Shown here piece after piece: positions 6,001-38,083 of a DNA stretch of 64,000 nt. Origin of the DNA: Panorpa germanica. Lineage: Eukaryota; Arthropoda; Insecta; Mecoptera; Panorpidae. Under the pieces are notes generated by a model that was not told where the DNA came from, searched no databases, and saw only the letters and a program-made list of their open reading frames with translations. Made by a program: the position numbers and the translations under genes. Position 1 is the stretch's first letter; every line of letters begins with the position of its first letter. The DNA lies in the NCBI GenBank assembly GCA_963678705.1, contig OY783216.1, positions 1,550,001-1,614,000 on the forward strand, read 5' to 3'.

Positions 6001-9000
6001 GAGGTAAACAAAAAACAATCACTTTTTATATCTATTTAGTTTGGTTAGAACGTGTTTTTATAATTAGCCTAGCTTAATTTAATTATCTTAAGATCGAGAT
6101 AAATTAATGATATCTTAAATTCTAATACGTTTAACAATTAGATAGATAAAATTTACAATGCTGCAACAAATGGAACATATGTACTGCTCACAACAAATTG
6201 ATATTCCACCGAAATTTCCACAAATTCTAAAGGAGTATGCTAAAGGTAATGGACACTATGACAAAAGGGCGCAGTTTTATAATAATCAGCTCGTATTAAA
6301 TATCGCTTCTCGGCCTCTTGGATAAGATCAAAGTTAGCTCGTATTAAATAAAAACTTATAACCAATTGATTATCAATTAATAATCGTACATATTTCCAAA
6401 TCAAAAAAGATGCCATCCGTACCCAACCAGCAGACCTGCTGCTGTGGTCAGCTTGCTATTTCCGGTGCCTAGCCAATGGAATTCCTGTACCGGCAAAGAA
6501 GCGGATAGAGGTACCACCTACTGTATCACGTACTGGACTGACTCCAGGGTTTATAGCAGTCCTTATAAAACAGGTGCTTCCATATTCTTTCAATATTAAA
6601 TCACGTAATTACATCTCATTACCAAATTACTCTTAAAACTATTCTAACATTTCGTAACTCAAGAAAACATTGTCTGATTTTTTTATACTAATGTTTCTTT
6701 CACTTTACTCTTTTTCCTTGCATGTACCTCCGCCGTTCACCTCTTGCCCCCCAGTAAACATTTGGTGAAATAGAATGGCTAGGTAAAGTTCTAGTCACTC
6801 GTACATTTCAATTCTAACGTTTTACAAGTTGGAGCAATTTTAGTTCAAATTGATTCCCTACCTGTCACAGGAGTCGCTTTTATTCAACAGTGAGCAGTCG
6901 TTGCGCCGTCTGTAGCTCATAAAAGAGACATTCCCTCCCAGTAAACAATTTGGTGAAGTGTCCTATTTGGTGAAGTTCGAGTCACTCGTACAATTCTATT
7001 CTAACGCTTTACAAGTTCTCTACCTGTCACAGATTTTGTGTTAGTTTTTCATAATAATATTCTTTCTTTTTCCAACATCATTCATTAAGTATTTCTGTTT
7101 CTTTCCCACATGGGTATATTTTTATTATCCGGTCATAAATCATAAACCTACTCCGCTTTTAATTCAGCAGTGAACCGTCGTTGCAATGTCTGTAGCTCAT
7201 AAAAAGGACCTTTCCTTTGAACGACTGAATAGAAAACGAACACGTTCCAGACAAAAAATTCATGATACGTAATAGAAATTAAGTAGAATTTACTCCAAAA
7301 TGTTTACTGGGCTATGAACGACTGAATAGAAAACAAACGCGTTCATGACAAAAAACTCATGAAAAGTAATAGAATTTACTCCAAAATGTTTCCTGGGCCT
7401 CCTTATTTCTTCTCCGCAAATTCTTTATTTTCTTTTTTCAATCCATCCTAAAATAGCAGTTTCCTTTCATATGTTCCAACGTCTCTTTTTCTTGCTTCCA
7501 CTTTCTGCCAATCCTCCCATTTCTTCTTATTATTTTATTAAAACAACGAATTCCTACCAAGTACCACGTTTCATCCCACTTGTTGTTATTTTTCCTTGCT
7601 TGCAATGTCATTCATTCATTTTAATTCCTTCTCCTTTCCTTACAAGGTTTCTATCAGGTTTACTTCGCTTTCCACCTACTCTTAATATTCTGTAATGTGT
7701 TCTCTTCAGAGACGGCCTTAGGGGGTGGCAAGCAGGGCAACCGCCGGGGCCTCGCATTCTCGCGCAACAACCCAAGTAGAAAAATTCATTACTATATATG
7801 TATTTGAATCTCGCGCCTCGCACTTTAGAAATCCCACTAGAATCATTGCGTATATCTTTTAAAGCATTCATGTACCTTAGTTTATCATCATTAATATTTG
7901 TCATCTTTGTGCTTGTAAAACTTCCAATATAAAATTTTATTTCTCGTCAATTATCATCAAAAATACTTACTTACAATTTACATAAATTATACAAAGAACA
8001 AGTGCCTCGCACAAATCTGCCGCTTCGAGGCCTCGCAAAGTTCTGTCGCCCGGGGCCTCACTAAATAGGTTGTCTTCCATGCCAATAATCCTGTATCGTT
8101 ATCCTTCCAGGTTACTACTCCCCAGTACCTACTGCTCCTCCCTTTATTGCCAAGTCTAAATCTCAATCACTTGATTTCCAGTTTGGACATATTTCAAAAA
8201 TTGATAGAGATGTACTTTGGAAAAGATGGATTGGGGTATGCCTTTGTGATGAAGAGTTAAAGAAAATGTTGATTTTGGGTAAAATGTTGAAAACACCTAA
8301 AATTCCTTGGATTAAATTTGTGGCTCTAATGATTGGACATCTATGTAATGTAAGTCTTTGTCCACTAGGAAATAGCGTGTAGAATTAAAGGTCATTCTCT
8401 CTTATCGAGTTTTAGTTTTACATTCATAATTTAACTAAAACAGTAGGTGTGAATGCTGCTTCATTCAAGGATTAATTCTCAATCAAATTTCAGTCCTTAA
8501 CGGAGACCATGATAATGTTTTGCGAAATAATGACAAATGAGCCAGACGGCGGAAGCGCAATGGTTCCTTTCTCCGAATTTAAGGAAGCGTACATATTCCT
8601 AGCTCAACTAGATTGCGGGTCCACTCAAAAGTTCAAGGAGGGTCGCAAAGTTGTCGATAAAACAAGATCTAGTGAAAAACGAGTAGAGTACAAAAGCGAA
8701 TCTGACACGAGTACTGTGTCTACGCATAAAGAGGCAGTTGGACAAAGTGGTAGCAAACAGTTTTACCTAGGAACACATATTGTCTCAGATGTAATATCAA
8801 AGGATGCACTGGCTGGCAAACATGGTGATATTATAATTGATGCAGTTATTGACAATTTGGTGGGAGAAGAAGCTACAGAAGAATTCGATCTAGATAAGTT
8901 AGATCTTAATCACAAGAAAGTTGCTAGTGTTTCTATGATTAGCGAACAGGCTTCGAGTGTTGATATCTTCCCGATCCACGCTGATGCAATAAAGTCTCAA

Positions 9001-12000
9001 GTTGTTTATGAAGATGACGTGAACGAAGTATGTACCGTTAAACTAGTTCCGACATTTTGTTTCTAGCCTCCATTTTGAAAAAATGGCGGTTAAAACCGGT
9101 TTCATGGAAGTTAATAAACATACTATTTAACTTATAGGATGAAGAAGATATTGAAGGTTATGAACAATGTGAAATTGAGCAGCTGCCAGAAGAGAAAGGT
9201 GACTATGATGCAGGGATGTTAGATTTTGATGACGGTATCAGCGTGCACACCTTCACCCAGGTCTTTGATGTAGATAAATCCACCACCGTGACACGCACAA
9301 GTAATAAATATTATTTTTATCAAAATATGAAAAGTTTTTGAAAGTTAATTAATTGTTCCACGTACGAGATTATGAACAAAGATTCGGAGATTAAAAGTGT
9401 GTCCAAAATGTGTGCGAGAGAGAAAGGTATATGTTCGTATTTGTTCTCTATTCGCATGCGTCGAAAGTGACAGCTGTCTAGATATAATAAATATTAAATA
9501 TGTAAAGAACTTATATTTCTTTAGTTGGTACAAAGCTCGTCTGTCGGTAAAACAGTGACCGTTCAGTGAAAACATATACTCATAAACACAGTTGATTTTT
9601 GGAGTGCACAGAACTCACGAATTTAGTTATATTTATATATAGTTTATTTATATTTATACATATCTACATTATTCTACATCAATATAATGCCATATTTAAC
9701 AACTGTCACGTATTATATCTAGATAGCTGTGACTTGACAACTGTCACTTTCGACGCATGCGCATAGGTAAGATATACCTTTCTCTCTCGCACACATTTTC
9801 GACACACTTTCAGGTTCAGCATCCACTCTCCGTTTCAACACTCATGATAAAGTGTGCTTCTAAGAAACAACTGCAACATACCATACTGCCTTAGATTTAA
9901 TGATCTAACAATAGTAATACATTTATTTTGCAGCATTGAATTCAAATGTGCCATCACGTGTTGCAAGTAATTCATCCACGGTTGACACCATAAGCCTGAG
10001 TGAATCTGAAGAAGAAGCCATTGTCTCGTACGCAGAACCTGCTGTATATTGGGACAAGAAAGAAGAGAAACCACCTTGTGGATTGAAGCCTGACAATATG
10101 GACCTTAAGAAAGATGGAGTGATTTATATTGAATCAATAAAAGGCATCGGTCCTGTTGTGCCAATCCTTATCGTTAAGACGTTTATGGAATACATGGAAT
10201 GTTGTGCCAATAATCAGCACAATATGGTCATGCCACGGAACATGCGCCATTATACCTGCCCAAATCTAGAGCCCAACCCCTCGCAATTCGAATCGGAAAT
10301 GGTGAACATCGACATTATTTACTAAATTCATTGTTCGTCTTTCTCCTCAAGTTTAAAATCGAAATTATTTTGTTATATCATTTATATTTTTTATATATTT
10401 TTGAATTATTTACTTTCTTTTATATATTTTTATATATATATTTTAACAACTTGGTCATTGGTTTCATTATATTATTTATAAGAAAAAAATAATTAGAAAA
10501 AAAATTATAAATTTAATTATACTTTTCAAGATTATTTTAAAAATTTACCCTTGCCAATATTCTGAATATTATTTTTTTTTTATATTTATTTATTTATTTG
10601 CCTTGACTTTTATTTGGCATAACCACTATAAAACATTTTTTATATATGTTTAACATAACATTTATAAATCTATTTTACAAATTTCTAAATATTTAAATAA
10701 TTCACTAATTAATTTTGAATCACTTAACAAAAATTTTGTAATAAAAGGAAAAGTTTTAATCACATTTATTATTTCACTATTGAATTTTGATCTTTGTAGA
10801 CTATAAAATGAATAGTTATCTATTCGGTGTTATCTATTAAAATATTAAATTAAATATTATCTGAATATTACTTAAGTATTCCTACTCACTGCTTTAATTT
10901 AATTTTGTATTTTGTATTTAATTTAAACTGTTTAGCATATAGCAATACGCAGTCATTCACAGTACCATTTTTAATTAAATTTATTTTTTAAGTTTTCTTA
11001 GTTTATTTTTTAGAACCTTACAAGGTCCAATGTTTTAAATTAAAAATATTAAATTAAGAAAATCTATATTATATTAAAACCTCCAAAATGTGACAACCTG
11101 TCAAAATGCAGTAGAATTTATTTTTAAAAGAAGTGTAATGTCAGTTTGTCAAAAATAAAGAAATAAAAACAATTTCTGTTACTAATTGTTATTAAAAATA
11201 GCAGTTTTAATTATTTCACATACAATTTTGTTGAAGTGTCAAAATTTATATTACTAACGATGCACACGTACGAACTAAATTAACTAAACTTAAATTAAAA
11301 CACAAATGTGAAAAGGAATGCTTAAACGAAAACCTGAAATCTAGATTACAATATTAAATAAAAACAGTAAATTAAATATCTAAACAGTGAGTGGAAATGA
11401 GGCTTTATACAATGTCTTTTCTTTTCTCTTGCGTTTATCTCAGAAACTACTTTTCTTGAACTGTTCGCCACGATACCTCAAGAATGCCTCATCCGTTATT
11501 AATGAAAATTACACCACATATTTTTTACAACATCTATCGAGCAGGTTACGATTTTTGCGATTGAATTCCTTCTTTATTCTTTATTCAAGCTTACACAATA
11601 AAAAATAAAGAAAAGGGCTCATGTCTCAAGTTTCAAATACACGTTTATTCTATTGATATTTAAAAAAAATATTTGAATATTATCATTATTATCCATAAAA
11701 GGAAAGACAGGTCGCTGACGATGAACAAAGCAAACTCGTTGACGTCGCAGTCTTAAGAAAAATAATAAATATAAAATTCATAAGGTCTGTAAGTTCTTTT
11801 ATTAAAACTTACTGCTTTCATCTGATATATTTTAATGTATTTTCTGAAGTATAGACATTCACTATTTACAAAACCATTTAATTTTTAAATAGTTCAATAA
11901 TATGTGTTAAAACTTCAAAACATTCCGACTATTAGTTTTCGAAATACAGTCGTTTTAGTGACGCTACTTTTATAATTTTCAAAACAATGAAAAAATCTGA

Positions 12001-15000
12001 AATTCATGTGTTTGTTATTAATATTAAAATAATATAATATATCTATAATATCATAATAATATAAAAGAAATCGATTTAAGTCATTGTATATTCTGCACAC
12101 CAGTCGATATTTTGTGCTGTCTAAAATTAATTAATGTCTAATGCCAGAGATATCTACCTATAAATAACGTTTACTTTAACCCGAGCGCGTAAGTTTTAGT
12201 AGGGTTCTACATTTCCTGGCTCATTTTAATTATATTTGCAACTGTTATAGAGGTTGCGGAATTTCAGGCGCTTAAATGTAAATAATTTACATATTTTAAG
12301 TAAAGATGCTATTAAAGATAGAATTATACATAAAAATACATATTTATTAATACAAATAAATTCACAGAAAGATAACCCATGGAAAAATAAGTGTATTTTA
12401 AATAAAAGAAAATGTTTTTAAACACTTACACTATCCTACTTGTTACTTTAAAATGGATCTACGTTTAACAGAAGGAATAATAATATTATAAAACTTTTAA
12501 CTAATTGATTATTAATCGAAGATTCAAACCAATGTCTGTCTCTCCGTTATAAAATTAAAATTACTGCGAAAATATCCCAACTTGTCTAGATTTAAATGAA
12601 TGAACCTTATGCATATACTTACACGGCTTCCTGTACCAAGGCGACACAGCATTCCACTTATAATAAGTGTAGTAATTTTGGCACGAAACAATTGTTATTA
12701 TAATTTGTACAGCAAAAACAAACAACGTTAATAAACGCATAATTCCGCTTAATTATAAATTAGATCTTAAAAGTAGATGAACATTTTCTAAATAATCCGA
12801 CACGCAGGGACACAAATCGACAAATGAACTATACCTTGAACCTCTTGTAAATTCACGAAACAGGTTCTCGACATATAATTCCAAAAAGGGAAACAAACCC
12901 GATTGAAATAAAAGAGAGGAAACAGGAATAAAATTCCTGTGCAATACATAATGTAGTTATGTGAAAAAATATAAGTAATTTTACCTTTGCATTCATGCAC
13001 ATCACTTGAAGAAGCTCTTCCCCATGGTGCATCGTTGTAGAATGGAAGACATTCTCCACAGTCTGGACCAGCCGTGTTGTGCTCGCATCTGCATACTCGG
13101 GATCGCTGACCATCTGGACCTGGAGAATGAAATTAGGCAATATTTGTTTAATCACAACTTTTAAATGATCTCTATCAAATTTTTCGGCACCACTGTAAAG
13201 ATACTTGCGACAAGAATGCTTTAAGATAGAACTGCTAGCATTATGTCTATATTTATTTACACCCTAGGACTTTAGGTTCCAACTTAAGGGAAGGGTAGGG
13301 TAAAAACAGTAAAAAAAAAGCATGTTTTCGATAATGTTTTTTGACGACACAGTTAATATATAATTATTTCTATAATTACTACATGATAAAATAACGCTTG
13401 AAGAATACTTTGTGAAATTTTCATAAATAAATATCAAAAAAAGTAACATTGCGTGCCACTCATAACTCATCACTGGATTATCTGAAATCGAAAACCCAAA
13501 ATAATTTCATTAGTTGATAAGTTTCTGCAGGTAACGCTGTCGAGTTTTTATTTATTTATTAATTTTTCAATTTTTTACAGCACTTAAAATTCAAAATACC
13601 GATTTTTCATGGAAAAGGTCAGAAACTTTGATATTTTAAAATACGTTAAAATTAAAAAAATGAAAAAAAACTCGACACCGTTACCTCGGCATTTATGTAA
13701 AGAAAGAGAGAGTGTGCAAAATTTCAAAAGAATCGGTCCAGTAGATTTTGAGCTAGAGAGGGCACCGACCCTGAAACTAGACCAGAGAGGTGAAGACTTA
13801 AAACTGTATATCTCCGACTTCAAATTTTCACACAATAAACTTAATATGTTCTACATTAATATAAAGTAGTAGTTACAAACCTGTGGATGGGACACATTGA
13901 GAAGCGTGTCCATTACATTTGCACCTAGCTCCAACGGCAACATCAGCAATAGCATAAAAGTACGACCGCAGAACCTGAGGGTCGCCGAACACTTCGTCAC
14001 CGAATGTGTTAAGTCTATCCAGGGTAATTCGAATATCCGTGGCTGTGACCCATTCCTTGAAAATGAAATATAATCGCGATTATTTTCTTTCAAGTTAAAT
14101 ATTTTTATACCGGCTTCATATATCATTCATGATAAGTACCCACGTGTGAGTGGAATACGATTTACCTGTAATTCTGGACTGGAATCAAAGTTGTAAGCAC
14201 TAGGACGCCCTTCCAGTGAAGAGAAGGCAACATTTCCGCCTCTTAGAGGAGATATATCGCTGTACTCGCTGGTACAAAGCGCTCGGGTTTCTGCTTCTCC
14301 TCTGATGGCATAGTTTTTGTCAGGGAGATTATAAGTGTCACGGCAAGTTGCGCTGCAGAAACGAATGAGTCATTAGAAACCATTAAAATCATTAATTTTT
14401 TCGTGAAACGTGATTTTATGCGCCCCCCTGTACCTGTAGTAGTGGTATGGTATCCATGGTCCTCCTTCTCGCGTTCTCTTGTAAATGGCAAAACTTTCTG
14501 GACGTGGTGAATAAAACCAAAGTCGCACGTATGTAATATCAAACGCTTTGCCTAGAAATTCACATTGTATAAAGTTTGGATGCTAACAGAACCGTATTAA
14601 GTTTTCGGTAAGGGTACTTATCCTTAATCCGGTCTAGAACACGTGTTTTTTAAGGTTACAATTTCAATCTAACCTACAAATACTTACGAAGTTTCAACGT
14701 CAAGTTAACTTGCGACGGGTACTGAATATTTTCATACATTGTCTCAGATTGCCACCATGTTTGATTATCCTGGTGGGATAAATCAGTCAGATAGTAAGCA
14801 GGATGGTCACCCTCTCGACATGTATCGCAAGACTTTCTAGCTGATGAACCTGTTTGCACACAAAAGTCAATGGGACCAAACTCTCCACACGTGTTTGTGG
14901 CTTCCATTTGTACTTCGTACGCGGCGTTTACAAACTCGGGAATACATCTCTGAAATATTAGAAATTCACTATGTAATATTCAATGAAAATAAAATAGTAA

Positions 15001-22899: not shown

Positions 22900-23586
22900 T
22901 TAAAGAACCACCACCTCGACCGCGCCCTTATCGTTCTCGTTCTCGAACTTAACCACGTAAGTAGGATAATAAGTTGCATCTGATTTTTGTTCCACACTGC
23001 AACTTATTTTCTTCACTACTATTACCAGGTCTCCTTTATTTGCAGTAATGTGTTCTACCAAAACTGGTTCTTCATTTTGCCATCCGATATTAGTTCTTCT
23101 TGGATCGAGGTTGTAGTCCAATGCAACATGAAGTTTATCGGATGTGATTTTATAGAAAGCGTCGGTCTAAAAAAATAAAATCAAATTATTATTCAAGTTT
23201 GCTTTTTATTTAAAAATGTCATGATAGATGGCAGTGTACATACAAAGCAGACATTTCCGTTTCTATGCCGTTTTATCTGTTGCGTCAAGAATAAGCATCT
23301 GCCATACGCGTAAGGATGCTGCACTCTCTCAATTGTTTCGATGTCTTCTGCGTTGAAGAATCCCTGTGCTACAGCCTAAAATATAAAAAAGAAAATAGTA
23401 TATATTTAAATTTATAAAAAATATATATAAATATATTTAATGATTATAATTTTATTTGAATAATCTTACATTATATTCACTGCAACCCTTTTCAATGGTA
23501 AACTTCTTGTACCGCACGTTGCCATAATTGTCCTCTACGTCTACCCATTCTTCAGGCTTATTCTGCAGGACTAATTGCAACATCAT
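22900..23586 (-). CDS. Mini-PARP 1: PARP-catalytic-domain-derived small protein, His lost
   Basis: Exons 23586-23470 (39 codons), 23375-23244 (44), 23166-22900 (88 plus stop): 171 aa, all introns phase 0. It follows the TIPARP/PARP12 catalytic domain at both ends: linker NKPEEWVDVEDN..KGCSEYN, helix IETIERVQHPYAYGRC, the first core strand AFYKITSDKLHVALDYNLDPRR, then LVIVVKK and the closing strand DATYYPTYVVKFE. The usual segment between them (about 70 aa with the GxGSYFA NAD loop and second catalytic Tyr) is absent within one unbroken exon. The NAD-binding His of the family (LFHGT) aligns with Lys (FYKIT). Activity as a transferase is therefore unlikely; a pseudoenzyme, scaffold or inhibitor is inferred. 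It has an acidic C-terminal tail not seen in its two neighbours. A 5' UTR acceptor (tatatag) lies just upstream of the double ATG. Confidence 0.8.
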
Positions 23587-23911
23587 GCGTCCCTATATAT
23601 GGATTTATATTTAAATCGAATGAATAATTCAGATAATACGCAATTGATAACAATGTAACAAAAAAGCACACGATTTTTTTAATCTTCAATTCTTTTTATC
23701 TAATTAAGTTTACTTACAAATGAAAAGTGTTTTCTTAATAATTAATAAAATTATTATCTTATTTGAAATATTTTTTCACTGAAAACCTAACTACTTATGG
23801 AGAAAATTGATGCAAACAGAAGTGTCTAGTTTCGCTGTATATCTACAATGCAGTTACATATATGAGTTCATACACATCTACATACTCAATTTGATTCGCA
23901 TTTAAAATAAT

Positions 23912-23920
23912 GGGAATCCC
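23912..23920. promoter_or_regulatory. Rel/NF-kappaB-type palindrome upstream of mini-PARP 1
   Basis: GGGAATCCC, a perfect match to the GGGRNNYYCC kappaB consensus, about 195 bp upstream of the leader-exon donor (gtaagt; exon ends near 23717). The following bases (CTTTTTACCAGGGCGTGT) are nearly the same as those after the site of mini-PARP 3, so this promoter block was duplicated with the gene. Confidence 0.6.
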
Positions 23921-24007
23921 TTTTTACCAGGGCGTGTACTATTGTCAACGTTTTACCAGAGATGATACGTTTTACTAAATGACAAACAGTAAAAACAAAG
24001 ATGGCGG

Positions 24008-24240
24008 CAGATATTTCCGAGGCACTTGTTCTGTATGTAATTTAAGTAAATTGAAAGTAAGTATTTTTATATTATAAGATTTATAAAAGTTAACAAACAC
24101 AAAGACGACAACTATTAATAATGATTAAGGTACATGAGTGTCTTAAAAGATATACGTAGTGATTCAAGTGGGTTTTCGAAAGCACGAGGCGGGAGATTCA
24201 AATTCAAAATGATTTTCTTGTACTGTAAATTTTGCTCGTA
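24008..24240 (+). repeat. Dispersed repeat family A, left part of copy 3
   Basis: Collinear with the start of family A; its counterpart lies beyond the 2-kb palindrome at 26353-26434, with about 20 bp of overlap between the two parts. Confidence 0.6.
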
Positions 24241-24287
24241 AGTAATGTTGCCGCTCTGTCAGGCGCAATGATGTCTTAAGTTTTATT

Positions 24288-26297
24288 AAATTCATGGACT
24301 TTTTTTCTAAAATATTTTTTGGATTTCTCGAAATTTTTTGATGCAGTTATGTTCGCTAGGCTTTAAATTAAAGAACTGCTTCATTACATTTTAAATATCT
24401 ACTCGATTCTGGCTTTTATGCGACCTTTTTTAAATTCATGGACTTTTTTTTCTAAAATTTTTTTTGAATTTCTCGAAATTTTTTGATGCAGTTATGTTCG
24501 CTAGGCTTTAAATTAAAGAACTGCTTCATTACATTTTAAATATCTACTCGATTCTGGCTTTTATGCGACCTTTTTTAAATTCATGGACTTTTTTTTTCTA
24601 AAATTTTTTTTGGATTTCTCGAAATTTTTTGATGCAGTTATGTTCGCTAGGCTTTAAATTAAAGAACTGCTTCATTACATTTTAAATATCTACTCGATTC
24701 TGGCTTTTATGCGACCTTTTTTAAATTCATGGACTTTTTTTTTCTAAAATTTTTTTTGGATTCCTCGAAATTTTTTGATGCAGTTATGTTCGCTAGGCTT
24801 TAAATTAAAGAACTGCTTCATTACATTTTAAATATCTACTCGATTCTGGCTTTTATGCGACCTTTTTTAAATTCATGGACTTTTTTTTTCTAAAATTTTT
24901 TTTGGATTTCTCGAAATTTTTTGATGCAGTTATGTTCGCTAGGCTTTAAAATGAAGAACTGCTTCATTACATTTTAATTATCTACGCAGATACTCAAAAA
25001 ATTGCATTGCTCTTAAAATCATAAAAGTGAACCTTTTCATCATTTTTAACAAGATTATAGTCTTCTTTCTATATAGAGATTTAATATCTTGATATATCGT
25101 AAACTAAAATACTTATTTAAAAATGAATTATAAATATGAAATCAGCATTTAAAATTAAGTTAAAATCTGTTATAAAATAACAAATTTATTTTCTTCAATT
25201 TTTATGAAAAGTAACAAGAGTATAACCTTCTTACTTTTCATAAAAATTGAAGAAAATATATTTGTCATTTTGTAAGGGATTTTAACTTAATTTTGAATGC
25301 TGATTTCAAATTTATAAATCAATTTTAAATAAGTATTTTAGTTTATGATATATCAATATATTAAAATATATGAAAGAAGACTATAATCTTGTTAAAAATG
25401 ATGAAAAGGTTCACTTTTATGATTTTAAGAGCAATGCAATTTTTTGAGTTTCCGGCTAGATATTTAAAATCTAATGAAGCAGTTCCTTAATTTAAAGCCT
25501 AACGAACATAACTGCATCAAAAAATTTCAAGAAATCCAAAAAAAAATTTAGAAAAAAAGAGTCCATAAATTTAAAAAAGATCGCGTAAAAGTGAGAATCG
25601 CGTAGATATTTAAAATGTAATGAAGCAGTTCTTTAATTTAAAGCCTAGCGAACATAACTGCATCAAAAAAAATTAAGAAATAAAAAAAAAAATTAAGAAA
25701 AAAAAGTCCATGAACATAGAAAAGGTCGCGTAAAAATCAGAATCGCGAAGATATTTAAAATGTAATAAAGCAGTTATTTAAGTTATAGCCTAGCGAACAT
25801 AATTGCATCAAAAAATTTCAAGAAATCCAAAAAAAAGTTTTAGTAAAAAAAGTCCATGAATTTAAAAAAAATCGCGTAAAAGCCAGAATCGCGTAGATAT
25901 TTAAAATGTAATGAAGCAGTTCCTTAATTTAAAGCCTAACGAACATAACTGCATCAAAAAATTTCAAGAAATCCAAAAAAAAATTTAGAAAAAAAAAGTC
26001 CATAAATTTAAAAAAGATCGCGTAAAAGTGAGAATCGCGTAGATATTTAAAATGTAATGAAGCAGTTCTTTAATTTAAAGCCTAGCGAACATAATTGCAT
26101 CAAAAAATTTCAAGAAATCCAAAAAAAAGTTTTAGAAAAGAAAGTCCATGAATTTAAAAAAGGTCTCATAAAAGTCAGAATCGCGAAGATATTTAAAATA
26201 TAATGAAGCAGTTCTTTATTTTAGAGCATAGCGAACATAACCACATCAAATTATTCCAAAGAATAAAAAAAAAATTTAGAAAAATAATGTCCATGCG
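24288..26297. repeat. 2-kb palindrome made of about 145-bp tandem units
   Basis: Left arm: five direct copies of a 144-146 bp unit (starts near 24291, 24435, 24580, 24726, 24872; TTCATGGACTTTTTTT.. GATGCAGTTATGTTCGCTAG). Then about 200 bp unique to each arm's inner part, a 16-nt loop at 25215-25230, and the inverted arm with six copies (to about 26297). No ORF. Between mini-PARP 1 and 2. Confidence 0.92.
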
Positions 26298-26352
26298 AAC
26301 ATTTGAAATATTAAATATTAAAAAAAAAACTCGTTGTCTTGCGACGGGCTGA
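26298..26352 (+). mobile_element. Helitron-like 3' end next to the palindrome
   Basis: GCGACGGGCTGAACAGCTAG followed by T, the CTAG|T junction used by Helitrons. It joins at once to repeat family A (TAGTAATAAATT). Suggests the palindrome is carried by a nonautonomous Helitron-like unit. Confidence 0.5.
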
Positions 26353-26434
26353 ACAGCTAGTAGTAATAAATTATTCTACTTGGGTCGTTCTTCGAAGGTG
26401 CGATCTGCTTGCCACCCCCTAAGGCCGCCTATGA
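26353..26434 (+). repeat. Dispersed repeat family A, right part of copy 3
   Basis: TAGTAATAAATTATTCTACT..GCCACCCCCTAAGGCCGCC, the end of family A. Confidence 0.6.
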
Positions 26435-27575
26435 CGACAAGGACGCAGTAGTATATCGGACAACATGTCAATAATTAATTTAAAATATACATTGATAATA
26501 AATCTTAAAACGCCTAAAATATATGTGACATATTAAACGTCCCGATAAGAAATGTATCTATGCAGTTTATACACCGTCATAACACAGTCTAGCTATTCCA
26601 CATACCATATGAGAATATCGACCGCCATAATTTCCATTCGTTGCATTTATAAGTTATCTGCATATTGAATCAGATAGAGAATACAATTTTACATATAAAT
26701 GCGTACGCATAATTGATAAGACTTCTTGAAACAAGTTTTTTAGCGTTAGCTCTGTTTCTTTTATAAGCTCATATGGTGTTGTTTCATCGTTTTTACTTGA
26801 AAGATAACATTTTCTAAACGCAGTCGTATGTAGATCATTTTATGAGATATCTACGATACAATGAAAAGCATTGTCTGATTCATTTTACTACAATGTATAC
26901 AGAAGCGAAAAAGATATAAAATTTAAAGAGTCATCTTTATTCTTTTATAAATTGAATTACATCACTCCTTATTGCTGCATTGTGTCTGCCAATTTGCCAA
27001 TTTACAATTTCCATTCAATATTCATAAGACCTGGTAATTTACATAACATTAACTAAAATGAGAAAAAGAAATAGAATCAGTTTAATAATATATTTATTAA
27101 AATATAACTTTTGTAAATACACAAAATTAAAATAGAAATAGAAAAACCATTTCTCCTTAAATAAAAGAATGATATTTAGAAATTACAATACATAAAAAAA
27201 CACAAAGAACGGCATGCAGTTAATAAAATGAATTTGAATATAAAACTAGATTTTCTCTCGTGCTCGTAACTCAAGTAGAACTCAACCTGAAAACAAGAAA
27301 AATCTGTTAGTATAATCCAGAACCAACTTTTAAAAATATTTTTGAACGTACTTTTTCCCGCTGATTACAAATCTGAAAACCATTTTAAAATATTTCCAAT
27401 ATTTAACCGTTGAAACGCTAATATCTCGAAAACCGGAAGTGCCATCAAAAAATAAATAGCAGATTTGAAATCAGCATAAATTTTTACGTTAAGAACTATT
27501 ATAAATTTTACAATCGGAGACCATCAATTTCTTATCAAATTTTAATTGTCCTACTTGTAAACGTCCACGTCAACG

Positions 27576-27600
27576 TAAGGTAAGGTAAGGTAAGGTAAGG
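27576..27600 (+). repeat. (TAAGG)5 microsatellite
   Basis: Five pentamer units beside the mini-PARP 2 stop. Not the insect telomere repeat (TTAGG). Confidence 0.85.
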
Positions 27601-27641
27601 CAATTTAATTTATATTAAAATGAAAATTACCTTGCTTTGAC

Positions 27642-28261
27642 TCAGTCAAACTGAACCACATACAACGGATAATAACTGGCATCCGTGTCTTGTTTGACAT
27701 TAAGCAGCTTCTTTATAACAATTAGCACCTGCCCATTAGCAACAGTTGGAGGATCATTTAAAAATGAAGGTTCGCGACTACCAGAGGTCATCCTATATCG
27801 CCGAGGATCACAGTTATATTCCAGAGCCACTGCCAAATCTTCTTGATTCACGACATGGTACACTACTTTCTATAAATAAACGATTAAAGATTAGTCATTC
27901 ATCATCATCATCATCATCATCATTAGTTCAATGGATTATATTGTATTTACCTCTCTTATGGCTTCATGGGCTACTAGCATCTGTTCTTTTAAGAGCAAGT
28001 ATCTTCCAAAAGCATAAGGATGTTGTACTCTCTCTACACTTCTAATATCTTCATCGTAAGCTCGAAAATCTTTGATCACGGACTGCAATATATGAAACTT
28101 AATAAATTCTATCCTAAAGAACAAAACATTCTTTGCATTGTCTATGATCTTACATTATATTCCAGAGAATTTCTGGACACTATACATCTTACATAGCGCA
28201 CATTGGAATAGTTTGCTTCGTTCCAGTTCTGCGGTTTGGCGGCCAACACAATGGACAGCAT
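27642..28261 (-). CDS. Mini-PARP 2: PARP-catalytic-domain-derived small protein
   Basis: Exons 28261-28154 (36 codons), 28082-27951 (44), 27869-27642 (75 plus stop): 155 aa, introns phase 0, same plan as its neighbours. Seen: MLSIVLAAKPQNW linker, RNSLEYN boundary, IRSVERVQHPYAFGRYLLLK helix, VVYHVVNQEDLAVALEYNCD (equivalent to LFHGTS..ICKxNFD of TIPARP, so His kept), then VLIVIKK and ASYYPLYVVQFD (equivalent to the closing SYPxxIIQY strand). The middle of the ADP-ribosyltransferase fold, including the GSYFA loop, is missing. A leader intron precedes the ATG: acceptor before 28293, donor after 28794, with TATATAAA at 28910-28917 and a Rel-type site at 28957-28965. Induction by NF-kappaB-type factors is inferred. 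Of the three this copy has the clearest promoter. Confidence 0.82.
27900..27923 (+). repeat. (ATC)n microsatellite in mini-PARP 2 intron
   Basis: Eight units of CAT/ATC between exons 27642-27869 and 27951-28082. Confidence 0.9.
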
Positions 28262-28514
28262 GGTGATGTGCGATTAAAACAGAAGAGCAGTATCTGAAAT
28301 ATATAGGTGAATAAAACAAATATAAAAATTAGAATTCAAACTTGGAAAATGATAAACAAAATCAAAATGATTTCAGCTTGGTATATGGTAAGCACTACCA
28401 TGTTGGATTTAGTATCGTTTAGCAGATTTACACACTATAGACTGGCTATGATAAAAGAACTACGTGGATATTATCGTAAATATGTTAAGTGGTAGTTGCC
28501 AGTGAATTAGAGAT

Positions 28515-28660
28515 TTATTTTTGCGTGTAACTTTTTTATTATAAAATTTACATCAAAAAGTTATTAATAAAAGTTGTAGATAATATTATTATCTAGAAAA
28601 AATCTCTTTACAACATTTTTTTGGGACTTATAGTTTTTAAGATAAACAAGAAAATAGTAA
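28515..28660. repeat. Short dispersed repeat Q, copy 2
   Basis: Inverse match to 15525-15690; lies in the leader intron of mini-PARP 2. Confidence 0.55.
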
Positions 28661-28793
28661 CTGCGGTAATTGGAATGTTTACTTTAATCTATTACTCACT
28701 CAACCAAACACTAAGAAATATAATCTCAAAGCAAAACCATTGTTTTCTTTCTACTATTAATTTAATATAAATATAAATTAGTTTAATACTTAC

Positions 28794-28885
28794 ATTTAAT
28801 ATGTTCCTACTCTTATGGTCAATTAAGTGTTTTTTACAAATGTAAAGACGTCTGCAATGTATGACAGCTAACTAACACACAAAAT
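28794..28885 (-). other. Noncoding leader exon of mini-PARP 2 (inferred)
   Basis: Ends at a consensus donor (gtaagt) and lies just below the TATA box. It would splice to an acceptor (tatttcag) 32 bp before the ATG. Mini-PARP 3 (donor after 31254) and mini-PARP 1 (donor after 23717) have equivalents. Confidence 0.45.
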
Positions 28886-28909
28886 ACTACGACGCAAACT
28901 GCAGTGAAA

Positions 28910-28917
28910 TTTATATA
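28910..28917 (-). promoter_or_regulatory. TATA box of mini-PARP 2
   Basis: TATATAAA on the minus strand, placed between the Rel-type site and the inferred noncoding leader exon. The start of transcription is expected about 30 bp further on, near 28880-28885. Confidence 0.5.
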
Positions 28918-28956
28918 ACATTGACAAGCCAATCTGAGACCAAACACAATAAAGCG

Positions 28957-28965
28957 GGGAATCCC
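28957..28965. promoter_or_regulatory. Rel/NF-kappaB-type palindrome upstream of mini-PARP 2
   Basis: GGGAATCCC about 40 bp upstream of the TATA box (28910-28917, minus) and about 163 bp upstream of the leader donor at 28794. Spacing from the leader donor is alike in all three genes (163-207 bp). Confidence 0.65.
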
Positions 28966-29531
28966 TTGTTTCTTTGTTAGCTGACAGTCAAACCTATCGC
29001 CAAGCAAATTGATTATTCTTATCTCATAATCAGTAAATGAGGATTACTTAAAAAGAAATATTCGATTACATTATAAAGAATTATATTCACTTGGATGTAG
29101 GTAATTTTGTAAAAATATAAAAATTGCGAGATAGAAATAGTTTTGCTATTCGACAACAGATGTGTTGCTGTGCGGGAAATTTAAGGTATCTTCTATAGAC
29201 TAGTTTGAAACTTTACTAAAAATTGTATACACGTAAATATAATAATTTAATATGTTTACAGCCTGTAGTTGACATGCCGTTTAAGTTATCGCAAACAACA
29301 GGCAACAGCGGGAGTCCGCTATGTTTCTGACACATAATTAATCCTTTACGTAAGAGTTTAAAGTAGGGGAAAACAATGACCACCTAGGGGATGGTATTTG
29401 CGCAATTGCGCAGTGCGTAATGTGATGTACATAATAAGAAATTATCATTATTATACACGACGACTGGTCAGAATTACGTCCACATGACTAACCAGACTAA
29501 CGTTCTTTTTTTTTATAGCTTCTATACGGAA

Positions 29532-30149
29532 AATGGGCTTTTGTCCTATGTCTTAATTTCTATAAAAGTGTACTATATATTGATAAAGTGGCTTACTAGA
29601 ACCTCAAATATCCAATTGTTTTTTAATAACTCGTTATATGTTATGAGATTTTAACAATTAAAAAAGTCATTTTGTCTCTTCAATTATTAAATGGATTCAA
29701 CGTTGTACACATTCCAAATGCATGTGACATCACAACCGCTGCCAACCTTACAGCTCATAAATCTCTGCTATATGTATTTATATATCAAATATTGTTTACA
29801 GCTATTTCAAGCAACAATAAAATTCCAATATTATGTCTGCCTTAGCAGGGTTAAATAACATAAAAACTTATTATCTTACTACTCTTTCACTTGCTTGTTT
29901 GACTACCAACAGCTACAGAACATTACCACAGCACTGACCTACTCAACAAATAACTGACGTTAAAATGCATTTCACGTCATACAAATATGGCCGACTATCT
30001 CTAGCGCTAAAACTACAATTCAAATTTTTAATTGCTATATCTCCGTCAACATTTAGATATTTAATAAAATAGACATCAATTATTAACATCAATTTCAATT
30101 AACAATTGAAAAATCGACAACTAAAAAATGAGGACAAATGAAGCCCCTT
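29532..30149. mobile_element. 0.6-kb inverted-end family B, copy 1
   Basis: Starts AATGGGCTTTTGTCCTATGT and ends with the inverted counterpart, here diverged. Between mini-PARP 2 and mini-PARP 3. Confidence 0.75.
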
Positions 30150-30417
30150 AATTATGTCTAGTCACAGTTGCCTTCCCGCATATCTAAAATTACTTTTTTT
30201 GGCTCTTTGCGAATTGTACGTAGTCAGTTTTAAGGAAGAAACATAGATGACATATATGCCAAATAAACGTCTATTACTTTCTTTATTAAATTTATATTTT
30301 AGTAACTTTCCTTTATAAATTTACTGGCATAATTTTTACAAGAATTGAAGATGATGATTTGTTACTATTAGATATTAAACAGTGTACTTGAAGCTACACT
30401 TCAAATACAAAAGTATG

Positions 30418-31024
30418 CTAATGAACGTGAACGACATAAGCTGGGTAGTAACAGGCTTCTGATTTTTGATTTTCTTCTTGAAGTTCCCTCAAAATAATGA
30501 CGACTTCTTCTTTGGACACGAATGGTGGACTTGGATGAAATCTGGGAGTAATGTGACCATTGGGATTCGTTTCATATCGTCGGGTATCGCAATTATATTG
30601 TAACGCAACTGTCAGATCCTTTGCATTAACAACATGATACACCAATTTCTAAAAATAAATAAAAATGATTTAACAATTAGCTTGAACCGCAAAGATATAA
30701 GTAACATACGAACCTCACTGATTGGTTGATTAGATAAGACAAGTTTCTCCTTTTGCAGCAAAAATCTGCCGAATGAATAGATGTGTTGAACTCTCTCTAT
30801 GGTTTTAATATATTGCGACAATTGCCCGAATTGCTGTGCGACGGACTGGAATAAAGATACACCTAATTATTAATAGAATCATCAGTGAATGATATATTGC
30901 ATTGTAAAGTTAGTACGTTAAATTCTAATCCAGATTTGGGTACTAGAAATGTTTCAAACAAGACATCCTTGTAATCAGCTTCCTCCCAATTTGATGGCCT
31001 CTTGGATAATATGATAGATAACAT
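30418..31024 (-). CDS. Mini-PARP 3: PARP-catalytic-domain-derived small protein
   Basis: Exons 31024-30917 (36 codons), 30845-30714 (44), 30648-30418 (76 plus stop): 156 aa. The exon-2 length is identical in all three copies and all introns are phase 0, so the array arose by duplication. Seen: MLSIILSKRPSNWEEADY linker, SGLEFN boundary, IKTIERVQHIYSFGRFLLQK helix, LVYHVVNAKDLTVALQYNCD (His kept), EEVVIILRELQEEN and the closing ACYYPAYVVHVH strand. It lacks the central NAD-loop block as in the others. The first donor is gtacta and the second gttcgt, both weaker than in copy 2. A leader exon ends at 31254 (gtaagt donor) with its acceptor before 31031. A Rel-type palindrome sits at 31461-31469. 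Function unknown; homology to PARP-family domains is by remembered motif alignment. Confidence 0.82.
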
Positions 31025-33026: not shown

Positions 33027-36000
33027 ATGGTGTCCATTTTGTGGTTCCGGCATGGATTACGACTCCATGATAACCCAGCGTTATTGAGTGCCATTTCTGA
33101 CAAATCGAAGAAATTTTATCCGGTATTTATTTTTGATGGAGAAAGTGCAGGTATACACTCTTTAAAATTTTGGTAATGTTTATAATAAACGGCATATTTT
33201 TAATTTGGTTTAGAATTGTTTGTTTTGCTAATAGAAATTGTCTTGCAGTCATGCAATTTCACACTTGCTAGCTAATTAAAGTGTTACATTTTCCACCTGG
33301 GTAGGTTAAAATAATTTTTTGCGCAATCGCATTTTTTATGGAGATTCAATTCTAATTCTACTCTAACAAGAGTCTCTCTCTTAATTTTACCGTGTTCTAT
33401 TCTAAAAAATATTGATCTGCATGTACGAAACCTGCCAAATACAGTGATGTATATTTTATAAAAACGAAATTACAGTCTGTATAAGGCCCTCTGCACACGA
33501 TGCGACTGGTTGCAAACCTTTGCCCGAAACGAATGTGATTACAATTATGTTGTTAGTAAGAGATTGAACGTGTATGCGAGTGAGATAAAACACGAGGAAA
33601 GGCATACGAGTCGACTAATTGCAAACTAAACGAGAAACGAAGTTTTCAATGAAAACGAGCACGAGCCATGTCGAGCCGTGTATCGTGACTCTATAGAATT
33701 TTTAACAATAGCATATTGTGTTATATTTGATTGTATGTATGTATTTAAATATTTTTCAATAGTATTCGTAAACATCTCTGTTGATGAAACCAGCAATGCC
33801 CTGCGACCGAGAAATCTAGTCGCTGAATATATGCTCAAAACCAGTTTAGTTACGTTCGTGCCGTGTGTTTTATCTCACTCGTGAACACGTTTGTTCTTTT
33901 ACTAACAACACAGTTGTAATGACCCAGTAAACATTTTGGAGTCACTTTGACATCATATTGAAGATGCGTCATGATTTTTTTGTCACGAAAGAGTTCATTT
34001 ATAGTTCAGTTTCTCACATTTTTTCATATAAAATGTCTACTTTATCGGCTATAGATGACGGAACCACTCCACCTGTCGGAATACAAATGAAGATAAAGTT
34101 GATGCGAACTATAATTGAAGTCAAATAGTGATAGAAACGTCACTAAATAGGGCACTTCACCAAATTGTTTACTGGGGACATTCGGTTCGGGCAGATTCGG
34201 GGCTAAGGTTTGCTACCAGTCGCCCCTCTGCGGACGCCCTAAAAGTTTTTTTGTAAAATATAAGAGGTTACCCATGAATTACATCTCATACAATTTATGT
34301 TTTCTTAACTTACCAGTTCCCATTGTCACGTCTTGTCACTCTTAGGGATCCTCTTCCACTGTTTGCTGTGACGTAATTTATAAATGGCGCCTAATTTTGT
34401 CAAATTGTCATTAACAAATTGACAGCAGGATTCCATTTTAAAATTAAATTATCTTCACTAATAACAAACTGTATAAACAATTGAAATTAAACAAATTCAC
34501 TTGCCTAAGTATAATATAAGTTGTAAATAAATACATACACCTCCACTAGGTGGAAAAATGTTTAACAAAAACTGTTAAATGATAATATTTATTAAATAAA
34601 TAATGTGAACCAGTGCCGCAGCAACTTGTCTGTGGGCTTTGTGAGCCCCTTGAATGACATTTTCCTTTTTAGTCTCACGGCAAATTGTATTCAAGTCAGC
34701 GTTGTATAACGGCTGGGGATTCAATAAATGCGTGAGTCATGAGCGCACGTCCATTATGCCCATTACATGATCCGCCTCTGATCTAGACTGAACCGAGAAT
34801 AGAAAATGCTACATATATAATGTTCAGATTGTAGGTTGCATGTTGGTGGAACACTATAGCGATGTTTATTATTTCAGGAACTAAAATTGTAGGTTATAAT
34901 CGAATGAGGTACCTTCTCGAATCTTTGCAAGATCTGAACAAACAATTCGAGGAACTTGGAGGACGCTTATTCGTCTTTGTTGGAAACCCTAGAGTGATCT
35001 TCCATACTATCTGGAAGGAAATAGGTAGGGTACATAAATAAAACAAATTAAAAATATCTTTCTTTTTAAATCTAATACAATATTTCTTTTTAAGGCTTAT
35101 CTACATTATGCTTCGAACAAGATTGCGAACCAATATGGCGGGAGCGAGATTACTCCGTCAAGGAATTCTGCGACAACGAAAATATACAATGTCTGGAATT
35201 TGTGTCTCACACCCTTTGGAATCCCCACAAAGTTATTAAGACTAACGGTGGGGTGGCACCACTGACTTATCAAATGTTTTTGGTAAGGTTACGCAAACTG
35301 AATGTTAAGATAAATTAATATTTAGTTTCTATACAAGTTTTGTTCAATTTCCAGCATACTGTGTCCACCATTGGTGTTCCTCCAAGACCTGTGGAAGATC
35401 CTGATTGGACAGGTGTTGAATTTGGGAAACTACCTGATATTCTAGTTGCTGAACTTCACATGTTTTATAAGGTATATTTTATGTTCTTTAAATTCCTCTG
35501 GTAATACCATAAAATTTATGTGGATACCAGGACATTGTAGAATAAGAGGAAACGAAATTGCGGATAAATTGGCAAAGGAATCAATAAATTTGGAAATTGA
35601 GATGAAAGTGAAATTACGTTCATATGAAATTTTTAATTTAATCAAAAAATTAAACTTCAATTTGAGAAACCAAGATTTCATTAACAAAAGTCAGTTAAAA
35701 GGAAGAGATCATTATATGTTACATCCAAATTTAAGTAAAAAAAGATGGTTTAGTAATGAGTCCCGCAAAACTATATCAACTATAATCAGAATCAAAAGTA
35801 ATCATTGTAAAACTCCAGCTCACCTGTACAAAATTAATATTAAATCTGACTCATATTATTTTTGAATGCATAAATTATAGTTTAGAAAGATCAAAATTCA
35901 ATAGTGAAATATTAGATGTGATTAAAACTTTTCCTGTTAATGCTAAATTTTTGTTAAGTGATTCAAAATTAATTAGTGAATTATTTAAATATTTAGAAAT

Positions 36001-38083
36001 TTGTAAAATTGAATTATAAATTATAAAAGATGTATAAAAAATGTTTGATGGTGGCTATGACGAATAAAAGTCAAGGCAAATAAATAAATAAATATAAAAA
36101 AAAGTCGCTCTGGCTTACCTTCTCTTCCACATTTAATTTAATAAAGCCAATGCGAACAGTGCGGCCCATGGACGATTACCCTAAACAGATATATGTAATT
36201 TTAAATAAGGATAAACAGAATTAATTTTTTTAAATATTTTATTTGCAGGTTCCAGTCCCTGAAGACTTTGGCATTTTCCCTGAATATTTGGGACGCCCTA
36301 CAATACATTGGAAAGGAGGGGAAAGGCAAGCATTGAGAAATTTACGGGAGAGGCTACAGGTAAGATAAAGGTATATGGAAAAATGTTTCATGAACTAATA
36401 TATACACTCTAGCTTAATTTCTCTTACTTCAGGTGGAAGAATCTGCTTTCAAAAAAGGTTTTTATTTGCCTAACCAGGCCCAGCCAGATATTCTGCAGCC
36501 CCCTACTTCACAGAGTGCAGCACTGCGTTTTGGGTGTTTGTCAGTGAGAAAGTTAGTACCGATTTATTGGACATATTGTGAACTTGTGATCTTCAAATAT
36601 TTTGGAAAATTCTGTTTAATATTTTTCCTTTTAATAAAGTTATTGTATTTCAGGTTCTATTGGAGCGTCCATGATCTGTATGTCAAGGTTCAAGGAATAA
36701 CCGATCTTTCCGAACATCAGGTTTGTTATATTAATTAATACCTAAGTATAATTTGGCTAAAAAGAATGAGGCTTAAGTCTGTCGTGCTTTTCAGGTTCAT
36801 ACCACTCATGTCACTGGACAATTGATTTGGAGAGAATATTTCTACACCATGTCTGTCAACAACACATACTATGGAGAAATGAAACGCAACCCTATCTGTC
36901 TGGATATTAGCTGGAGGGAGGATGAAGTTATGCTTAAAAAGTTTGTAAAAAAAATCCCTAAAAAGGGCGCTTCAATAGTAACAATTTTAATACAGCTCTA
37001 GTTCTTTTTAGATGGATGCAAGGACAAACTGGATATCCTTTGATTGATGCTGCAATGAGACAATTGAAATTAGAAGTAAGTTCTTCTTCTATAAATCAGC
37101 AACATCTTAAATGTTATAATCCATGTAATAACATTTTAAAATTGTTCATAAGGGCTGGTTGCATCACATTTTAAGAAACACTGTCGCAACGTTTCTGACG
37201 CGTGGAGATTTGTGGATCAGTTGGGAGCATGGATTACACTTCTTTTTGAAGTATTTGTTAGATGCAGATTGGCAAGTTATTTAATATATTTTAAATAAAT
37301 TGGGGTTCTTCTGGTAGCCAAATGATAGCATGGTTCACAACCCAATTCTCTGTTAACTGGCACTGAAGTACTGTTCGTTCTAACTGGACTTTTTCAGATC
37401 TGTACTTCGGTTTCGTGAATGCATTTGGTTTACTGGAGTACTCTACGATTAACGAGAATTCTGTTGATTTCATATTTTGTCAGGGTGTAATTTATTTTTA
37501 CATATCAAGGTCTGTCTGCGCTGGAAATTGGATGTGGGTTTCCAGTTCAGCTTTTGAGCAACTATTGGATTGTTCCAAGTGTTCCTGCCCCGTATCGCTC
37601 AGCAAACGACTAGATCCCAATGGGGAGTACGTGCGACGATACATTCCAGAACTTGCAAAATTCCCAACAGAGTATATGTGAGGACCTGTAGATCTACCAT
37701 ATCTTTAAATCTTTGACAAATGAACAACATTTAATAAGAAAATTTATGTTTGTAGCTTTGAGCCATGGCGTGCGCCTTTAATGGTCCAGGAAAGTGCAGG
37801 TTGCATCATTGGCAAAGATTATCCACAAAGAATTGTTGACCATAATGTGGTGGCACAAGCTAATAGTCAGGTAAATTACTCAACACACTTAGGCGCAGAT
37901 CCCCCTTTAAATGTTTGGAAATCAGATAGGAAGAACAATTGTTTATTCCAGGTGATGATGAACATCAGAACAGTGCTTATGTCTGCTTCTCCAGTCAACG
38001 TGCCGCAGCACTGTCGTCCTTCCAGCGAAGACGAGGTGCGCCAATTCTTATGGCTGCCTGATGAATGTAATCTCCATCCTTAA
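33027..38083 (+). CDS. cry1: Cryptochrome-1, type 1 (Drosophila-like blue-light photoreceptor), complete
   Basis: Exons 33027-33150, 34878-35024, 35095-35282, 35355-35471, 36249-36359, 36433-36551, 36654-36720, 36795-36940, 37012-37075, 37153-37271, 37510-37677, 37756-37870, 37952-38083; 538 aa against 542 in Drosophila. Starts [20 protein letters not shown] (photolyase-homology domain). FAD-domain motifs are present: [82 protein letters not shown]. Tryptophans matching the electron-transfer chain appear in KKWMQG, LDADW and GNWMW, and the Cys of SVCAGN is kept. The short tail [19 protein letters not shown] matches the Drosophila CRY tail. Role: light input that drives TIMELESS turnover in the clock. 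Intron 10 is GC-AG (gcaagt) and splits the Trp codon of LDADW. Intron 4 holds a LINE fragment. Confidence 0.97.
33485..34239. mobile_element. PIF/Harbinger-type nonautonomous element, family D, copy 2, interrupted
   Basis: Same family as 16781-17312, TAA duplications at both ends, interrupted by the 254-bp element 33923-34176. In cry1 intron 1. Confidence 0.8.
33923..34176. mobile_element. CCCAGTAAAC family, short subfamily, nested
   Basis: 254 bp, 2-bp duplication GA, near-identical in reverse to 18976-19221. Inserted in the Harbinger-type element 33485-34239, so it is the younger of the two. Confidence 0.88.
35474..36105 (+). mobile_element. 5'-truncated LINE with RNase H end, in cry1 intron 4
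   Basis: Reads through the end of an RNase H domain ([20 protein letters not shown]) and the C-terminal region of an I/Jockey-type ORF2 ([27 protein letters not shown]), then a 3' tail GTCAAGGCAAATAAATAAAT. Same strand as cry1; the frame is broken near the end (35865). Confidence 0.85.

Follow-up and report, generated by a model that had tools for sequence, protein, structure and literature searches.

Three tandem mini-PARP genes in Panorpa germanica, probably from a maintained family of stand-alone pseudo-PARPs

What keeps a PARP catalytic domain in a genome, and duplicates it, once its active site has apparently been lost? The question is raised by three neighbouring genes, here called A, B and C, in a window of 64,000 nucleotides of the mecopteran Panorpa germanica (GenBank assembly GCA_963678705.1, contig OY783216.1, positions 1,550,001 to 1,614,000 of the forward strand). 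Each encoded protein consists of an ADP-ribosyltransferase (ART) domain descended from clade-3 PARPs, and no other domain is recognised in it. The three probably arose by tandem duplication within a family of mini pseudo-PARPs that stand alone and are under selection; its members would work by binding.

The genes lie head to tail, have three coding exons each and encode 155–171 amino acids. An initial annotation of the window had read a common plan of 36–39, 44 and 75–88 codons, all in phase 0, and the exons as reconstructed from the genomic sequence agree with it: exon 2 has 44 codons throughout, and all six coding introns (65–94 bp) are GT..AG and phase 0. Codon counts below are sense codons.

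Gene A, 31024-30418, minus strand
Gene A exon 1, 30917..31024, minus strand: 36 codons; ATG at 31024-31022; TAA in frame 6 nt upstream
Gene A exon 2, 30714..30845, minus strand: 44 codons; holds the IERVQHIYSFGR strand and helix alpha2
Gene A exon 3, 30418..30648, minus strand: 76 codons and stop; YHVV, NCDTRR and the closing YYPAYVV
Gene B, 28261-27642, minus strand
Gene B exon 1, 28154..28261, minus strand: 36 codons; TAA in frame 15 nt before the ATG
Gene B exon 2, 27951..28082, minus strand: 44 codons
Gene B exon 3, 27642..27869, minus strand: 75 codons and stop
Gene C, 23586-22900, minus strand
Gene C exon 1, 23470..23586, minus strand: 39 codons; TAG in frame 9 nt before the ATG
Gene C exon 2, 23244..23375, minus strand: 44 codons
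Gene C exon 3, 22900..23166, minus strand: 88 codons and stop; Y at the histidine position; extra tail of 13 residues

Given the in-frame stops just before the three ATGs, translation could include an upstream domain only through further splicing. The linker of gene C has a 2-residue insertion. No fourth copy was found in the window by tblastn up to E 10, the next matches having E of at least 0.42.

PARP descent and fold

Resemblance to PARPs at the start of the catalytic domain had been proposed from the letters alone, and profile searches confirm it. A profile of A, B and C matches PARP15 at E 9e-5, and with relatives added, the search of the PDB reaches E 9.8e-10. The whole family aligned by hhalign against full PARP gave 97.8% and a score of 81.7, compared with 20.3 for the best of 200 column shuffles. 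The initial annotation had staked its case on a profile or structural match; the profile match was thus found, and the PARP fold appears in the predicted model of a relative. In both models, the chain is closed by a helix and two strands. The match claimed for the closing strand stands in part, as YYPxYVV resembles the PARP 'YPEYLI', but by sequence alone it is reached only as a negative-scoring second stretch.

The best sequence and fold match is the ART of PARP15/PARP14 (clade 3C), and PARP15 shares with the family a P-x-x-W stretch before the domain. The N-x-D-x-R that follows helix alpha3 in the family is also found in PARP12 (clade 3E, the PARP7/11/12/13 branch). The PARP14/15 clade carries macrodomains, as the excerpted text of PMC2964712 describes, whereas none is recognised in A, B and C. 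The Pfam search showed no zinc finger or WWE domain in the three proteins either, which speaks against PARP13/ZAP orthology.

Other hits were set aside. In Pfam, protein C matched NdhO (E 0.0065) and DUF6475 (E 0.094), under the cut-offs and taken as chance. The PDB search with B returned no PARP and three unrelated chains at E 0.65–1.3; single-sequence searches of PHROGs and NCBIfam returned no PARP either, the one PHROGs family listed (E 0.029) being regarded as a chance match. Ribosomal L44/L42 chains (E 0.005 and up), listed for the profile with relatives against the PDB, were likewise taken as chance.

The shortened domain and its active site

Lengths and residues were counted in one MAFFT register of eight sequences, namely A, B, C and five full-length relatives; three MAFFT settings agree by eye. 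Between the NFD-type motif and the final YP, three stretches add up to 45–46 residues in A, B and C, compared with 93 in PARP15, 89 in PARP12 and 82 in PARP13. The missing residues number 43–48 against PARP15/12 and 36–37 against PARP13, so the figure of about 70 in the initial annotation was too high. The donor-loop stretch (NFD-type N to the F of YFA) keeps its length, with 15–16 residues in A, B and C and 17 in PARP15/12/13. In the same comparison, alpha4 has 16–17 residues vs 24–27, and the stretch from beta5 to the final YP 13–14 vs 41–49. The corresponding values in the five relatives are 17–28, 16–24 and 10–21 residues.

About 45 residues were therefore lost, most likely strands beta6–beta7 together with beta8, the site of the third triad position. 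When parts of PARPs were removed from the alignment templates, the local score was 94.2 without beta6–beta7 and 90.6 without beta6–beta8, both above full PARP, while templates cut as the initial annotation had described scored lowest (78.9 and 78.8), yet these remove the most. Because such templates are unequal in length, deletions of fixed length were slid along the PARPs. With 34 residues, the best positions lie after beta5 (starts 623–635 in PARP15 numbering, scores 91.7–93.7), and central starts score at most 88.7. The alignment reaches the closing strand only with a loss after beta5 (query 12–157 vs 12–110 or less). The scan scores, this reach and the closing helix and two strands of the models make the loss of beta6–beta8 the better reading. 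A beta8 remnant is possible in three relatives (P0002, P0006 and P0007).

A central loss, which is the idea of the initial annotation at a smaller size, would leave the same family, also inactive, with about 40 residues gone (the YGKG-YFA strand, alpha4 and beta5) and beta6–beta9 kept. It runs a close second in score: a template without the donor loop to beta5, for which no shuffle control was run, scores 88.6, and a 42-residue loss from PARP15 587, at YGKG, scores 90.0, both above full PARP and, in the longer scan, nearly even with the 91.1 found after beta5. These two values count against the placement after beta5. At both lengths, however, that placement scores higher, only with it is the closing strand aligned, the model has a helix before its last two strands, and the donor-loop stretch is unshortened in the MAFFT alignment. 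A loss in the NAD-loop core is therefore doubtful, and we hold the central placement to be rather unlikely.

In the loss of catalytic residues the two placements agree. The histidine of the HG motif is kept in 7/8 sequences and the glycine in 0/8; gene C has a tyrosine at the histidine position, the same as the PARP13 chain. The triad tyrosine and the serine that follows YGKGxYFA (S599) occur in none of the eight, and the YGKGxYFA motif is lost. The third triad position is a gap in five, including A, B and C, and a valine in three, where the alignment is unsure. In the central-loss register, the triad tyrosine and the serine would be deleted instead, so they are gone either way. The H-Y-E/I/L triad and the HG motif are thus absent as sets, and what is found, an ART fold with its NAD-binding residues lost, is that of a pseudo-PARP. 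With the HG glycine, YGKGxYFA, the serine and some 45 residues missing, NAD+ binding or ADP-ribose transfer by A, B and C appears very unlikely, judging from the sequence.

Selection, relatives and alternative readings

The three genes are paralogues, with identities of 46% (A-B), 41% (B-C) and 34% (A-C) and BLASTP E values among them of 2e-52, 4e-36 and 7e-23. At codon positions 1/2/3, A and B differ by 0.43/0.26/0.61, A and C by 0.54/0.37/0.71, and B and C by 0.41/0.37/0.66. Synonymous divergence is saturated: the Nei-Gojobori method returns no estimate, and the maximum-likelihood values are dN 0.43 and dS 2.6 for A-B and dS of about 16 for A-C and B-C. Neutral evolution was simulated with the observed third-position rates and intron composition (three settings, 20,000 runs each); about 12 stops per gene are expected, and 0/20,000 runs in each setting were stop-free. 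Intact frames at near-saturated third positions, together with relatives that are equally short, support that the frames are held by selection rather than decaying.

A single-sequence search of the protein collection with B found no relative. The profile of aligned A, B and C found five proteins, and a profile of eight aligned sequences found six, three of them new. The Mormon cricket Anabrus simplex supplies two of the relatives, one listed as 'uncharacterized' and one that NCBI names 'protein mono-ADP-ribosyltransferase PARP14'. Five relatives are full-length (165–178 aa), and P0003–P0005 stop about where exon 2 ends. The comparable shortness of the full-length relatives also speaks against extra central exons, which the initial annotation had named as a possible refutation. 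The short cricket proteins suggest seemingly dead enzymes kept for a purpose. In viral and prokaryote contigs, searched by pattern and tblastn, 0/60 and 0/15 stretches were confirmed, though introns could hide relatives. In the tree, A, B and C cluster together (94/94 with PARPs included, 95/94 when these are left out), apart from Anabrus and the remaining relatives, as expected after local duplication. The tree does not resolve the two Anabrus copies; the branch of B is the shortest of the three and that of C the longest, and the placement of C is unsure.

Several points weigh against a maintained pseudo-PARP family. PF00644 was listed at E<=10 for 0/3 of A, B and C, and among eight relatives only for P0003, at 17.6 bits, below the cut-off of 26.7. 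The exon-3 part against full PARP is near chance (9/200 shuffles reach its score). The modelled relative is 32–38% identical to A, B and C, which are shorter in alpha4, and the active-site table rests on one register. The selection test covers only the three paralogues, which are gene models predicted from the genomic sequence. A purely structural role does not explain a histidine in 7/8. This histidine could serve a minimal residual enzyme, whose site a partner might complete, yet the HG glycine, triad tyrosine and serine are missing in 8/8 and the third position is gapped in A, B and C, which makes such an enzyme highly improbable. A shortened domain and degenerate motifs are also what decaying PARP fragments would show. 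Against such pseudogenes stand the equally short relatives elsewhere and the fact that frame, splice sites and codon pattern persist although third positions are nearly saturated; we give this explanation hardly any credence. The initial annotation had preferred a selected pseudoenzyme to decay, and intact frames, the full-length relatives, the modelled PARP fold of one of them and the lost catalytic motifs support this view.

To our knowledge, the pseudo-PARP domains known (PARP13, PARP9, RCD1 and TASOR) are all parts of larger proteins. PARP15 has HG, YFA, the serine and a leucine at triad position 3, whereas the family lost the first three. PARP13 is likewise without the H and G of HG, but its chain retains YGKGxYFA and the serine, both lost in the family, as well as beta6–beta8, which the family lacks if the loss lies after beta5. 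Excerpts of PMC7532188 describe PARP13 as inactive, PARP13 and RCD1 as inactive without two or more NAD-binding residues, and TASOR as having lost more, with a degenerate ART fold that is required for function without catalysis. The family resembles TASOR in this degenerate fold; TASOR has beta8 and an extended beta8–beta9 loop (same excerpts), and its pseudo-PARP forms part of a larger protein. Inactive PARP-like domains also occur in PARP9 and RCD1 (PMC2964712, in excerpt); PARP9 carries macrodomains and the RCD1 clade WWE, and the excerpted text reports no family-like deletion for either. Insect proteins of the PARP7/11/12/13 branch with a PARP domain only are described from Tribolium in part of PMC4245714. 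A search of the open PMC library found no description of a stand-alone ART shortened like A, B and C. The statement that no such family had been described thus holds for the literature searched, with the qualification that NCBI already names one member PARP14 and that pseudo-PARPs as a kind are known.

Modes of binding and genomic surroundings

The best-kept parts of the family are I-x-x-[VI]-E-R-[VL]-Q-[HN]-[PI]-Y-[AS]-x-G (beta2–alpha2) and the closing strand; segment identity is 0.78 in beta2, 0.69 in beta9, 0.67 in alpha2, 0.55 in the donor loop, 0.49 in alpha4 and 0.40, the lowest, in beta1. Because beta2–alpha2 is best kept and alpha2 of PARP15 is a dimer interface, homo- or heterodimerisation through alpha2 would be the best guess at the mode. 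In the excerpted text of PMC12572374, this interface also involves R576 and D665, and an inactive H559Y protomer raises wild-type activity via the heterodimer. From the order of helices, the family alpha2 (P0001 58-75) presumably corresponds to the PARP15 dimer helix.

As a special case, the mini-PARPs may use alpha2 to pair with any active clade-3 PARP that the animal has, thereby activating or silencing it. The H559Y heterodimer favours this, as do the good conservation of beta2–alpha2, a glycine within helix alpha2 in 11/11 sequences and an acidic residue in the D665 column in 8/8 (5 D, 3 E). R576, in contrast, is kept in 0/8, though an invariant R stands one column further on, and alpha2 is alike in active PARPs too, which makes its conservation a weak argument for dimerisation; both points add to those against the binding mode, and such pairing seems unlikely. 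The other special case, for which we see an equally small chance, is a restriction factor that binds nucleic acid, like ZAP/PARP13 or the weak binding of single-stranded RNA by the TASOR pseudo-PARP. RNA binding by ZAP lies in its zinc fingers, and these are absent in A, B and C.

Further features of the window are as follows.

30282..30287, minus strand: AATAAA after gene A, hexamer match only
Starts 27098 and 27086, minus strand: AATAAA-like hexamers after gene B, hexamer matches only
Start 22846, minus strand: AATAAA-like hexamer after gene C, hexamer match only
24282-26295: between genes B and C, an approximately 2-kb palindrome formed by two oppositely oriented arrays of a 146-bp unit (some 4.8 and 5.8 copies) on either side of a further 139-nt inverted repeat
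About 1200-15000, minus strand: laminin chain gene with EGF_laminin, Laminin_B and Laminin_N matches
8476-9066, plus strand: open frame of 196 codons opposite the laminin gene, without a Pfam match at E 0.1
35446-35862, plus strand: reading frame containing the last part of an RNase H domain (E 5e-6), possibly left by a retroelement
37367-38080, plus strand: cryptochrome/photolyase exons (FAD_binding_7 at E 3.6e-12, and again at 8e-6, which narrowly misses the cut-off)
48894-49187, minus strand: final part of a PTB/PID domain, matched weakly and below the cut-off (E 0.004)

The proteins of these genes consist of the ART domain alone, shortened by roughly a quarter, yet this domain is kept and duplicated. 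A, B and C thus offer a compact case for studying the role of the PARP fold in the absence of NAD+, and a count of PARP-related genes based on Pfam misses their family. More speculatively, and with still less likelihood than either special case, they may belong to a family of minimal pseudo-ARTs, single-domain proteins widespread in insects and freed by the loss of catalytic strands to act as exchangeable dimer partners, in which tandem dead protomers tune active PARPs or block foreign ADP-ribosyl signalling. If true, such a family would be the PARP counterpart of regulatory pseudokinases.
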